Source: Pezizomycotina sp. ARF18 (taxonomy: Eukaryota; Ascomycota). Taken from it: a DNA stretch of 25,645 nt. The position numbers and the translations under genes are program-made. Location: positions 148,049 through 173,693 of the forward strand of contig AZLU01000065.1 of the NCBI GenBank assembly GCA_002224055.1, written 5' to 3'. Under the pieces are notes generated by a model. It did no database searches. It saw only the letters and a program-made list of their open reading frames with translations, and was not told the origin of the DNA. Of this stretch, positions 9,105-17,214 are shown in pieces; positions within the stretch are counted from its first letter, which is position 1, and the number at the start of each line of letters is the position of its first letter.

Positions 9105-9220
9105 TTTTCCGGATGCCGGTGTAATTTTCTGCGCGGCGGCTGGAGTAACTCTTTTTGCTCCAATAGCCGGCTTGAAAATTACACCGGCGGCTAGATTGAA
9201 AAAGTTACTCCAGCCGCCGC
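9105..9220. repeat. Interleaved inverted repeats (A-B-A'-B')
   Basis: Arm A, gccggtgtaattttc (9115-9129), is exactly complementary to A' at 9174-9188. Arm B, gcggcggctggagtaact (9133-9150), is exactly complementary to B' at 9203-9220, with a further T5/A5 pairing after one bulge. The order is A-B-A'-B', so the two perfect stems (15 and 18 bp) cross rather than nest. The region also reads as about 24-bp units (ttttc...gccgg..gtaa) present in both orientations. On the minus strand it falls in an open frame with a loosely repetitive translation (GVIFKPAIGAK, VTPAAAQK, ITPASGK). Origin as a foldback element or a structured transcript is inference. Confidence 0.8.
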
Positions 9221-9308
9221 ACCCCAAATAAAACCAGCGTTGGAGTAAAACGCGTTAACCACCGGTTTATCCTAGTTATGCCGTTACTGCATAGTAGTGA
9301 TAAGCCAG

Positions 9309-9414: not shown

Positions 9415-9574
9415 TACCATAGGGTTTGAAGTCCGAGCCCGCCAGACAAGCATGTTTATAACAGAACCAAATGAGCTTCCTTCAGCTCAGTTTGTCGCCA
9501 GCAAAGTACGCGGGATTTTGCTACTTTGGCTCCTCCTTGAGCTACGGTCAAGCAAACCGACCTTTATCGCTTGA
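9320..9574 (+). CDS. Short open frame, possible exon, unknown
   Basis: After TAA at 9317 the plus strand is open for 84 codons to TGA at 9572. The only ATG (9452) leaves 40 residues, with a Leu-rich segment (ILLLWLLLEL) that could be a short membrane helix. No splice acceptor was fixed upstream. The 3' part overlaps a sequence repeated near 11.8 kb, so it may belong to a repeat rather than a gene. Chance openness is quite possible. Confidence 0.22.
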   Translation: MLNRFWLDCFHQKIWSHISHRTLELREIYSGSTIGFEVRARQTSMFITEPNELPSAQFVASKVRGILLLWLLLELRSSKPTFIA

Positions 9575-9640
9575 ACAGCCTGTCGAACAGAATCCCGCTG
9601 CTGCTTAGACCAAGCGCAAAAGAAGGTTCGTTTTTTTTTT
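9500..9640 (+). repeat. Diverged repeat, copy 1 (partner 11745-11925)
   Basis: Shared blocks include GTCAAGCAAA, a GACCTTT...CTTGAAC segment, TGTCGA, and an identical 20-mer, gcaaaagaaggttcgttttt, at 9616-9635 (copy 2: 11901-11920). Spacing between blocks differs by tens of bases, so the copies are old or rearranged. Both lie in the same orientation about 2.3 kb apart. Confidence 0.65.
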
Positions 9641-10294: not shown

Positions 10295-11262
10295 TTACTG
10301 ATACCCGGCAGTCATTCGAGCGGTTTGCGCGATGTTAGTGGATGGTGGATACGGAACGAGACAAAGTCAGAGCTACTTACCGGCAAATCGTCCTCGTCTC
10401 CCTCATAGCCCTGGTTGAAAACTTGCGTCAGATTACACTGGTGTAGAACAGAAGGGGGTAGCGAGGGACTCGTACGCTGGTAGCAGCATCAGCAGCCGAC
10501 CCCTGGGAGTCCATGGCCTGAAGTGGATGCTGTAGTTAGTATCGTAGGACGAGAAAGCAGAGTAACAGTAGTCTCGCTCACCTCAGCAACGGAGCTGGTG
10601 GTGACGATTCGAACGCGTTTTTGGCGGTGTTAGTCATGTAATAAGGGGAATTGGAAGATCCTGGGATATACCTCGACGGCCTTATCATCGTGCTAGATAG
10701 CATGGGTCAGCATTCAATGACTTGAAGAAGGGATATCGCACTCGTGGAAAATACGTACGGCGGGACGCTTCCCCGGGCTTGGTGACCTCCCCCCTCGGCT
10801 ACAGAAGAATAAATGTTAGGATGCAGAAAACGAAGGAAGCACTCACGGGGGGTGCGGATGGTTCGTTGCTTGTAGTCTAAAAGAAGAAAAAAAATGAAGA
10901 GCAAGAGGTCAGAATAGGATTTTCGTTGCTCGAAAAGGAGAAGATGAAGTTTAAACGGCACCAACAGACTAGTAGGGCTAGCCTGTTCGATGTGGAGTAG
11001 TCCTGGCACTTACGAGCGTCTTGCTTGTTTCCCTTTGGCGGGGGGTAGCTTCGAGGAGGTATTGCTTAGAAATGTTTAGCAGACTAATATCACGCGGACC
11101 TCTTCTTTGATCTTTTTTTTAACGCAGCGACCTGTACGCTAATCTCCTTGACCTGCTGATCCAGTAACTTCACGACAGCTGTAGAGGTTTAGCGCTAGAA
11201 CTTTGCCTAGACGACTAAAAGGGACAGCAATGCAACTTACATCCGAGGGTAGGTCCTTGCAT
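10295..11262 (-). CDS. Intron-dense small gene with microexons, product unknown
   Basis: The start ATG is at 11262. Exons (minus strand): 11262-11241, 11178-11100, 11048-11014, 10876-10847, 10798-10759, 10692-10672, 10594-10582, 10476-10381, then TAA at 10297-10295. Introns begin GTAAGT, GTCCGC (or GTGATA six bases later), GTAAGT, GTGAGT, GTACGT, GTATAT, GTGAGC and GTAAGT. Most carry CTAAC, CTGAC or CTAAAC, and they are 48-137 nt long. All phases agree without any base change, giving about 112 residues. The N terminus is helical and charged (VVKLLDQQVKEISVQVAALK) and is followed by a Lys/Arg patch, then a Pro-rich middle (YPPPKGNKQDAHYKQRTIRT), then an acidic end (GYEGDEDDLP). An alternative acceptor for the last intron (exon from 10517) gives a different C terminus stopping at TGA 10428. 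The second intron's AAG acceptor is the weakest junction. The family is not recognised; a small nuclear or scaffold protein is only a guess. Confidence 0.75.
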
Positions 11263-11658: not shown

Positions 11659-12024
11659 ATGTTCCTAATGAAACGTTGGGAGGTCGCGGCAGCAGATCGT
11701 CTGCCCCAGTCTTGTTCTCACGATATCGACAGAGCAGCGAACTACTTTGCAGTCGAGGGAAATCCTACCGGGAGTATATTTGCTCCTTGGATTACCACTC
11801 GAACTACAGTCAAGCAAATTGACCTTTGCTTACTTGAACCAGCCCCTGCCCTCGGTCGGTTTTCTGACGACAGCCTGTCGAGGGCTCCCAGCCCTAGAGT
11901 GCAAAAGAAGGTTCGTTTTTCCCTTGTTGAACCGTCCTCAACCTACAAAAAGACTAGGGAGGTGAAATACCGGAGGGCTACCCCCGATTTCGACAACGAC
12001 CGCGCCGTCTGCATGGTCTGCTGA
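11659..12024 (+). CDS. 121-codon open frame containing repeated modules
   Basis: An ATG at 11659 opens 121 codons to TGA. Translation is Ser/Pro/Arg-rich in the centre (SLSRAPSPRVQKKVRFSLVE). Two parts are duplicated elsewhere in the window. The QKKVRF segment falls in the repeat shared with 9.5 kb. RRATPDFDN near the end matches WRATPDFDD of the 12.2-12.8 kb coding remnant at DNA level (ggagggctacccccgatttc at 11972 and 12694). It is therefore more likely a partial or older copy of the downstream unit than a separate gene. No domain was recognised. Confidence 0.33.
   Translation: MFLMKRWEVAAADRLPQSCSHDIDRAANYFAVEGNPTGSIFAPWITTRTTVKQIDLCLLEPAPALGRFSDDSLSRAPSPRVQKKVRFSLVEPSSTYKKTREVKYRRATPDFDNDRAVCMVC
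11745..11925 (+). repeat. Diverged repeat, copy 2 (partner 9500-9640)
   Basis: Same orientation and block order as the 9.5 kb copy, with the identical 20-mer at 11901-11920. In this copy the blocks are in a different reading register from one another, which argues against strict coding conservation of the repeat. Confidence 0.65.
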
Positions 12025-12760
12025 GCATTTGTAGGAAAGAAGTCGAGCATATTCGGGGATTTCTCTAATTTCCCTATAATTAAATTTAGAGGCGGACATT
12101 TCCAAGGACCCTACATAGCCATCGTACCCGGCGTTCGAGGGTTTTTGAGGCACGAAAAACCCTAGCGCCTGCGGCGGGCGCGTACTTGAATGGCTATGAA
12201 GGAATCCTTTGGGAGAGGCATGTGCTATCATACGACCTGATTCTGCGAAGCTTCTTAAGACTCCGTATACCCTAATCCCTAACCGATCCGTGAAGGTGGG
12301 ACTCAGCAGATGGTCGTCTGAGATCTGTGAACGGCGCGCCCCTGCGGTAAGTACGCGCCTATTCTATAAAAATTTAAGCAAGCAGCTGACGGCAAGTCGT
12401 GGCGGACAGAGACGCAGCGGTCGACTCTGCAATTAGGGAGGCTCTGACTCAAATTCGCCATCGAAAGCGATCGAGTCTCCGGGCACAAAACCGCCCTCGA
12501 TGCCACTCTAGCGCAATGCCGCGCTGATCGACACGTCGAAATCGCCAAGGTCATCGTATCTTCAGCTAAGCTCGGAGATGGATGAATTAGAGACGGTCTT
12601 CGATGATCCTCCTTACGAGCGCACCGGGCCCTGATTCGGAGCTCAGCGCAGCAGTGTCAACCTTTGCCTCGCTCCGTTCCAAACCAAAAGATTGGAGGGC
12701 TACCCCCGATTTCGACGACAACCTCGCCCGTTGCAACCAGCTCCGTGAGCATTCTACATA
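11972..12760 (+). repeat. Direct repeat pair 722 bp apart
   Basis: A 23-bp identity starts at 11972 and again at 12694, followed by weaker similarity through TGAGCATT (about 60 bp in all). Both copies read RATPDFD in the plus direction. This is a partial tandem duplication of one coding segment. Confidence 0.7.
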
Positions 12761-15644: not shown

Positions 15645-16102
15645 ACAATGACACTTGTGCCAAACCAAACGCCGTGTTCCAAGGTGAGTCAAAGCAAATG
15701 CGACAGGAGAAAAAAAAAAAAAAGACAACCAAAATAAGGGGAATTAATCGAACGCTTTTGAAAAAAGAGCTCTGTTGGATCTGTCGCAGCAATGCTTTGC
15801 GACAGTGATCGAGCGACAAAATTCTGTCATGCCGCATATTAAATGTTTGATATAAAACTGTTAAACTCGATGATTGAGACGCGGCCGTAAATGCGTGAGC
15901 GAGCGAAATTGGCTCCGTAAGGCTAACTCAAAGGTTTCAACCTGGACGGAAACTGTTAGTTTAGATTTTCCACTAATTCTGCCTATTTTTTTTTTTTTTT
16001 GAACCGAACTCCTAACACGCGGAAAGTAGTCGTTTACCCGCATCGTCTAGATTCGTATCATGATATTAGGCTGGATTGGAATCCCGGGGAACAAAGAAGT
16101 AC

Positions 16103-17214
16103 CTTGACCTCTCGTGCCTAATATTCTCGTTGGCGATCTCTCCGCGTCCCTCTCGTCACCGACCTTCAGCCGGCCGAACTCCGTTGCCGTTTGCAGCGTC
16201 ACGCTCCGCTGGTGAGGGCGATTAGTCGGCGCGACGTCATCCGAATCGTTGAGCAGGTCTTTGAGACTCGGCGTCGTCCGCCTCGAAGCCACGGAAGCCG
16301 GCTGCGGGCGAGGATACTGTCCGTGCTGGCTCTCCTTGAGCCTGGAGTCCGAACTTGTCGAATACGCCGTGGACGTTGCCAGCGACGCCCTTGAAGATTC
16401 CACGCTCGCTGAGCCTTCGGACTCCGAGCCTCTGCGTTCGATCGGAGACGTGTTCCAAGAGAAATTATGGAAATTGGATGGCCTGCTCCCGATCGTCGGG
16501 ACGTAGATCGCCTCCCCCAGTGCTGCTGCTGGTGATGCTGCGAGGGAACGGTAAAGCGGGAAGGTGTCGTTGCGGTTGTAAATGTGGTGGTTGCTGATAT
16601 TGCTGCTGCTGCTGCTGAGAGTGGTGTTATGATGATGTAGCTGAGGTGGCGGATGGTGGTGGTGATGGTGCAGCTGCTGGTGTTGGGGCAAGTTTCGGGT
16701 GATGCGGCATTATGCCGGGATGCGTCTGGTAGCCCGGGGGCCGTGCTTGCAGCGGCAGCTGGTGTCGGTTCCACTGCTGCGGCTGGTCCGAAGTGGCCTG
16801 CGGGAGGACTGTGAGGGGTATGAGCACTCGGAGTAGTGAAGACGGGCCCATGGAAACCATGGAGCTCACCGAGAGATGAACTTCTAACCAACCTTCTACG
16901 TTTTGATCCGATTGAATTCCACGCGTCGTCCTCGGGCCGCACCCCGTACAGCAGCGCATCCTCCTCCATCTGCGCCTTCGTCCTCCTCCGGCGAGGCTTT
17001 TATCCTTAGCGCCAGGCGGCCGGCCATATCTCTTCCGCCTCTGAATCTCCAGCTCCTCGCCGTGAGCTGCCCGAGCCCTGACCGTCGTGCCGATACATGC
17101 CGTCCATTATCGGGTCGTATCGTTCGTGGTGCAGAGGCTCCGCTACCCTCATTGGTCCCCCGGGTGAGGCAGCAGTTCATACCGCTTCGAATGTTCCGCC
17201 ACAGATGGCTCCAT
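16103..17214 (-). pseudogene. His/Gln/Ser-rich putative nuclear protein, frame-broken
   Basis: From ATG at 17214 the minus strand reads SVAEHSKRYELLPHPGGPMR, then RYDPIMDGMYRHDGQ, to two close stops (17008-17006 and 17002-17000). The same frame then resumes with KPRRRRTKAQMEEDALLYGV and SKRRRLVRSSSLGELHGFHG, two basic clusters that resemble nuclear localisation signals. Near 16690 the coding character moves to the -1 frame: QHQQLHHHHHHPPPQLHHH, a Ser-rich segment, FSWNTSPIERRGSESEGSAS and RRTTPSLKDLLNDSDDVAPT. It ends at a donor-like AAG/GTACTT at 16103, with CTAAC...CAG about 150 nt further on. Low complexity plus NLS-like clusters suits a fungal transcriptional regulator, but no DNA-binding domain is visible. 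The double stop may be an unseen intron. The shift near 16690 needs one missing base (a CCC or AAA run). Confidence 0.6.

Follow-up and report, generated by a model that had tools for sequence, protein, structure and literature searches.

A small predicted minus-strand gene with nine short introns and serial tiny exons in a filamentous ascomycete

The window analysed here, that is, the whole stretch of 25,645 nucleotides of DNA from Pezizomycotina sp. ARF18, corresponds to positions 148049-173693 of contig C65 (AZLU01000065.1) within a 46.36-Mb assembly of 408 contigs. The placement of this genome in Pezizomycotina gains indirect support from its 15 HET-domain matches, HET being a domain that marks the group. 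The feature under study occupies C65:158343-159310 and reads, on the minus strand, from an ATG at 11262-11260 of the window, with an A at position -3, to a TAA stop codon at 10297-10295. The predicted model comprises nine coding exons of 22, 85, 35, 30, 40, 21, 13, 42 and 30 nt and nine GT-AG introns of 45-137 nt, with a tenth exon that opens directly with the stop codon. The intron phases are 1, 2, 1, 1, 2, 2, 0, 0 and 0, and along this minus-strand chain a single frame is open from ATG to stop. No base has to be altered for the phases to agree, as the preliminary description of this DNA, which named no strand, had claimed. That description had also counted nine pieces and eight introns; the split into many pieces stands but the count does not, there being nine coding pieces, a stop-only tenth and nine introns. 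The exons of 13 nt (10594-10582), 21 nt (10692-10672) and 30 nt (10876-10847 and 10410-10381) that it had pointed out are all present. The features are listed below, all on the minus strand, the introns with their motifs and site scores.

11241..11262, minus strand: exon 1, 22 nt, MQGPTLG plus 1 nt, followed by donor GTAAGT
11179..11240, minus strand: intron 1, 62 nt, GTAAGT ... GCTAAA ... CAG, phase 1, score 8.7
11094..11178, minus strand: exon 2, 85 nt, open frame, predicted three-heptad coiled coil and basic KKRSKKR cluster
11049..11093, minus strand: intron 2, 45 nt, GTGATA ... CGAAG, the weakest junction, score 3.5, taken by the lax chain scan
Donor 11099, minus strand: variant of intron 2, 51 nt, score 3.3
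11014..11048, minus strand: exon 3, 35 nt, from the lax chain scan
10877..11013, minus strand: intron 3, 137 nt, GTAAGT ... TCTGAC ... TAG, phase 1, score 9.7
10847..10876, minus strand: exon 4, 30 nt, phase 1-1, could be skipped with the frame kept
10799..10846, minus strand: intron 4, 48 nt, GTGAGT ... CCTAAC ... TAG, score 9.7
10759..10798, minus strand: exon 5, 40 nt
10693..10758, minus strand: intron 5, 66 nt, GTACGT ... GCTGAC ... TAG, phase 2, score 9.0
10672..10692, minus strand: exon 6, 21 nt, phase 2-2
10595..10671, minus strand: intron 6, 77 nt, GTATAT (a fair donor) ... ACTAAC ... CAG, phase 2, score 7.2
10582..10594, minus strand: exon 7, 13 nt
10518..10581, minus strand: intron 7, 64 nt, GTGAGC ... 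ACTAAC ... CAG, phase 0, score 9.1
10503, minus strand: tandem acceptor of intron 7, 15 nt further and in frame, score also 9.1, picked by the lax scan
10476..10517, minus strand: exon 8, 42 nt, phase 0-0, or 27 nt with acceptor 10503
10411..10475, minus strand: intron 8, 65 nt, GTACGA ... TCTGAC ... CAG, phase 0, score 7.7
10381..10410, minus strand: exon 9, 30 nt, acidic end GYEGDEDDLP
10298..10380, minus strand: intron 9, 83 nt, GTAAGT ... ACTAAC ... CAG, score 10.4
10295..10297, minus strand: start of exon 10, stop codon TAA
10176..10277, minus strand: possible alternative last exon, acceptor 10278 (score 7.7), open frame encoding ILLRSLLQFYGTILFWPLFHFEAIMVYKEYLNTI and then a stop

The site scores come from a list of minus-strand GT-AG introns of 43-160 nt, each of which was roughly scored on its donor, branch site and acceptor, with weights that we set ourselves from the fungal consensus. 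Eight introns stand out by this score; the intron at 11093-11049 (3.5) was added to them and bypasses the in-frame TGA that directly follows exon 2, which is the reason why the models rely on one of the donors 11093 and 11099. Of the nine donors, four have the sequence GTAAGT or GTGAGT, whereas GTACGT, GTGAGC, GTATAT and GTACGA are near or fair matches and GTGATA is weak; a CTRAC branch-like site is found in seven of the nine introns, in agreement with the earlier remarks on canonical-looking donors and on branch sites in most introns. Site quality is thus good or fair in eight introns and weak in intron 2, which combines the GTGATA donor with an AAG acceptor and a length of 45 nt. We also considered by eye a frame in which the A8 run of exon 2 would have to differ in length, and dropped it because the sequence as given works.

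Could this arrangement be a mere pile-up of splice-like motifs, each of which is, after all, short and degenerate by itself? The question was addressed with a chain scan that maximises the site scores under the constraint of an open frame, the strict version of which bars weak introns. The strict scan gives 16.0, compared with a mean of 1.1 (sd 1.2, maximum 5.5) in 300 dinucleotide shuffles, none of which reaches this value, and the lax scan gives 16.5, compared with a maximum of 8.9 in 1000 shuffles, again with none reaching it. Among 94 tiles of the window itself, taken from both strands and none containing the whole gene, the best three (8.7, 8.4 and 5.1) overlap the gene and the best one clear of it scores 4.3 in the strict scan. 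As a control from the same genome, 1264 overlapping windows of 1051 nt were scanned on both strands, 692 of them from 49 loci and 572 from 11 arbitrary 10-kb stretches; 47 of the loci had been located via kinase, proteasome and LSM matches and two via chance-level protein matches, and some overlap one another. None of these windows reaches 10 (maximum 9.3), and two contain six or more introns; in an earlier strict run on the 49 loci the maximum was 8.6. Neither the shuffles (0/300 and 0/1000) nor the genome windows (0/1264) approach the score of the gene, and we regard a chance origin of the chain as very improbable. The observation of a tiny multi-exon gene is thereby confirmed, and the GT-AG introns with their branch sites, in a number beyond chance, are as expected of a U2-type spliceosomal gene. 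A gene on the opposite strand was rejected, given that the same region scores only 0.2 on the plus strand in the strict scan. The control covers 240 kb net, or 0.5% of the genome, in overlapping windows, so similar genes may exist elsewhere. The best control chains (8.4-9.3), which begin at about 350 in control locus L013 and at about 1050 in L020 (contig C297, close to where a kinase-domain match begins), hold runs of 21-51 nt exons as well, so that runs of short exons may occur in other genes of this fungus.

The two versions of the scan part ways at the head of the gene. The lax scan recovers, unaided, the head given above and all junctions except that it picks the tandem acceptor 10503 at intron 7, whereas the strict scan takes another head, 11240-11112 and then 11013-10869, with eight introns in total. 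This alternative, in which the same gene would have exon 1 spliced to 11111 and the coiled coil skipped, yields eight introns, nine exons if the stop-only exon is counted, and, with the tail as tested, 96 residues; it avoids the weak intron 2 and agrees with the eight introns of the preliminary description. However, it requires an AAAAG acceptor as well as an ACAAG acceptor located 8 nt beyond a good TTTTAG, its total is 16.0 versus 16.5 for the ten-exon model, and its codon score is poorer than that of the coiled-coil head (-0.120 versus -0.065 for the whole, -0.223 versus -0.058 for the head alone). The head without the coiled coil is accordingly ranked below the best model, and we hold it to be improbable. 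The ten-exon model predicts the product MQGPTLGSVVKLLDQQVKEISVQVAALKKRSKKRSAYPPPKGNKQDAHYKQRTIRTPPEGGGHQARGSVPPTMIRPSSSVAEAMDSQGSAADAATSGYEGDEDDLP, of 106 residues, 11.2 kDa and pI 9.3, and not the 112 residues announced earlier; the exact model behind that figure was not recovered, 1614 nine-exon variants among the heads and tails tried giving a product of this length.

Is the frame coding? With 4398 codons from the kinase, proteasome and LSM matches in the same genome as the reference, the ATG frame of the spliced exons has a codon score of -0.065 and is free of stops, the single open one of the three forward frames; the other two score -0.381 and -0.340, with four stops apiece. A single open frame with coding-like codon usage thus runs across the exons, a signal of modest strength. 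As a yardstick, 14 pieces of 318 nt were cut from known coding matches, nine of which were dropped owing to in-frame stops, a sign of introns; the five retained score -0.074 to 0.204, one of the five falling below the gene, and the 28 off-frame readings of all 14 pieces score -0.567 to -0.109. In the window sequence from 12600 on, a stretch that may itself include genes, 9 of 240 frames score at least -0.065. Comparison of the strands is less clear-cut: the spliced sequence in reverse complement reaches -0.074, with three stops; exons 4-9 by themselves give a tie between the strands, at -0.192 and -0.194, both open; in exons 8-9 the reverse is slightly ahead (0.008 versus -0.017); and in exons 1-3 one reverse frame scores 0.018 versus -0.015, but has three stops in it. 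Because the codon scores of the strands tie or favour the reverse in parts, the strand assignment rests on the splice sites and not on the codons.

These features leave room for another interpretation, namely that the locus produces a multi-intron long non-coding RNA, in which the splice sites are real and the open frame is incidental. The modest and partly strand-ambiguous codon signal is compatible with this, as is the lack of any family or homolog in the libraries searched, and when the exon sequence is shuffled 20,000 times, an open frame of this length arises in 453 cases (2.3%). Against it, the sole open forward frame begins at the exon 1 ATG with its A at -3 and has the top forward codon score, and none of the 453 open shuffles equals either this score or the heptad pattern of exon 2, in which six of six positions are occupied, although this shuffle test flatters the model because the model was picked before the test. 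On balance, we consider a non-coding RNA unlikely, if somewhat less so than the other head. That the frame is protein-coding appears likely, not proven, and coding is less strongly supported than the chain of splice sites.

What could such a protein be? In exon 2, V10, L13, V17, I20, V24 and L27 occupy all six consecutive a/d positions of three heptads, and the predicted protein as a whole consists of a short coiled coil, the basic KKRSKKR cluster, which we take to be NLS-like, a middle part rich in Pro, Gly and Ser, and an acidic tail, the last decapeptide of which, GYEGDEDDLP, has a net charge of -5. This composition suggests a small nuclear adaptor or a subunit of a complex, the weaker step in the argument: the N-terminal three-heptad helix would dimerise or dock onto the coiled coil of a partner, nuclear import would be mediated by the KKRSKKR cluster, and the flexible linker would make the acidic DEDDLP tail accessible for binding by a basic partner. 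A role as a small nuclear adaptor thus seems plausible on these grounds.

Searches for relatives gave little. The 106-residue model matches no Pfam family and no NCBIfam family at E<=10, and among five variants or pieces of it the search of Pfam produced a single match, PF15814, with E 0.13 and under its cut-off, the others none. The best matches among PDB sequences, to EZH2 over query residues 49-101, have E-values of only 0.17-1.1, and for this reason EZH2 is not taken as a homolog, the resemblance being confined to TPP and Pro/Ser-rich stretches; a further search of PDB sequences gave the TSG101 coiled coil (E 1.6) and MTH1615 (E 3.3), neither of them meaningful. Pattern matches in viral contigs (18) and in bacterial and archaeal genome contigs (185) included none that was confirmed. 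In the genome of the fungus itself, where the best candidates only were scored, two self matches and two weak ones (E 0.49 and 2.7, taken as chance) were found and no paralog; with a single copy found, we rejected the idea that the gene itself is multi-copy or stems from a transposon. Status as an orphan holds only relative to these libraries, namely Pfam, NCBIfam, PDB sequences, the viral, bacterial and archaeal contigs and the fungus's own genome. Rfam and tRNA scans of the window gave no hits, and a scan for bacterial-type promoters and terminators gave one and two sites, respectively, which is within the shuffle range and irrelevant to a fungus. Taking the splice sites, the consistent phases and the coding-like frame together, we think it probable that the locus is an ordinary single-copy, minus-strand nuclear gene with nine short U2-type introns for a protein of about 106 residues.

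How would a gene of this kind be spliced? The efficiency of splicing by intron definition is set by the length of the intron and not by that of the exon (PMC8624252). Each intron here appears sufficiently short for recognition as one unit, so that the exons of 13-42 nt could be joined constitutively into one mRNA, exon-level recognition not being required; with introns of only 45-137 nt, we infer that such exons need no special machinery. Other outcomes can also be envisaged. Retention with the frame kept is possible only for intron 4 (48 nt), which would add 16 residues within the open frame 11009-10710; introns 2 and 5 are multiples of three, yet contain an in-frame stop, and the remaining introns shift the frame. 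Exons 4, 6, 8 and 9 have lengths divisible by three. Together with intron 4, these in-frame exons would permit isoforms, and regulation through them is possible but unsupported.

The end of the gene offers a further choice. Both acceptors that the preliminary description had noted for the last coding exon, one giving an acidic and the other a hydrophobic end, do exist: use of acceptor 10298 leads to DDLP and then TAA, and use of 10278 to a largely hydrophobic tail of 34 residues. Acceptor 10298 is the first AG past the ACTAAC site, from which it lies 37 nt away, a distance that is long for a fungus. It is conceivable, therefore, that the last intron is alternatively spliced into acidic- and hydrophobic-ended isoforms with different destinations, given a pair of YAG acceptors with a spacing of 20 nt, of which the second opens the hydrophobic-rich frame; the nearer acceptor outscores the other, though, by 10.4 versus 7.7, and we judge such a pair of isoforms doubtful. 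A more ambitious version of the same idea would make the locus an ascomycete micro-exon gene, that is, an orphan nuclear protein gene whose serial tiny exons are used combinatorially to generate protein variants. The elements for this are in place, namely in-frame cassettes of 30, 21, 42 and 30 nt, the retainable 48-nt intron, the 15-nt tandem acceptor and the two C-terminal acceptors, but we give this version, too, little credence next to the ordinary, constitutively spliced gene.

For that ordinary gene, the nine introns in 318 coding bases, unusual in a gene this small, amount to about 28 introns per kb of coding sequence. This density is extreme in comparison with published means, although a short gene easily reaches a high per-kb value; the kind of gene is already known. 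In one survey, Pezizomycotina have a mean of 0.47 introns/kb in conserved orthologs, which places them among the intron-poorer fungi, and the top fungus of that study has 4.5 (PMC8476143); this bears out the earlier remark that the gene is unusual for an ascomycete. Means of 1.83 introns/kb for Pyronema confluens and 2.49 for Tuber melanosporum have also been published (PMC3778014).

Several known systems come close in one respect or another. The lipS gene of Dactylellina haptotyla is interrupted by more than ten introns and includes two exons of 3 nt (PMC5639578). Like the present gene it is a filamentous ascomycete gene with many introns and very small exons; unlike it, lipS has orthologs in many fungi and codes for a putative lipase that contains a conserved domain, whereas the gene of about 106 codons is without known relatives and is fragmented over its entire length. 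A microexon of 20 nt in Xlr2 of Trichoderma virens is regarded by its authors as the first functional one of its kind in filamentous fungi (PMC11121469). It, too, comes from a filamentous ascomycete and its size is near that of the 13-, 21- and 22-nt exons here, but it is a single microexon, switched by glucose and proven with RNA, whereas the tiny exons here are serial and any regulation of them would be conjecture. A more distant parallel is provided by the micro-exon genes (MEGs) of schistosomes, reportedly described by DeMarco in 2010. In MEGs, most of the coding sequence lies in tiny symmetric exons, that is, multiples of three, and the genes form a multi-copy secreted family. The likeness is a small coding sequence largely made of tiny exons; the differences are that only four of the eight internal exons here are multiples of three, that one copy was found, and that no hydrophobic N-terminal signal is seen by eye.

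With a 13-nt exon between introns of 77 and 64 nt, and others of 21-42 nt, the gene would be a direct test of the recognition of short introns as units and a natural test of the smallest exon that a fungus can splice. Gene predictors miss such genes, and the Xlr2 paper suggests that the 20-nt microexon had been overlooked owing to its size (PMC11121469). If conserved, the gene would add a hidden small protein; if lineage-specific, it would bear on the gain or retention of so many introns in so small a gene.

The surroundings of the gene in the window show some further features. The segment 2001-7000 has a GC content of 13-28%, compared with 54-61% in the sequence preceding it and about 45% in that following it, and resembles an AT-rich isochore. 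The minus strand at 16047-17106 carries open frames that overlap one another and contain GRPPGAKDK and KPRRRRTKAQMEEDALLYGVRPEDDAW segments; they have the look of a gene with introns and an AT-hook-like start, and no Pfam match above the cut-off was found for them. Nested inverted repeats lie at 9115-9238, one pair with 40-nt arms that are 80% complementary and 44 nt apart and a second pair of 34 nt at 76%. Another diverged direct repeat joins 11965-12029 and 12687-12753 (76%, core GGAGGGCTACCCCCGATTTCGAC). Finally, diverged direct repeats about 2.3 kb apart flank the gene, 9517-9580 pairing with 11779-11844 (74% over 66 nt) and, as a second part, 9613-9635 with 11898-11920 (22 of 23 identical). 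A 16-mer of this flanking repeat, with at most one mismatch, occurs at five places in the genome, two of which are these copies, and in the genome search the stretch 11640-12060 matches itself only; the gene may therefore lie inside a local duplication of old date.
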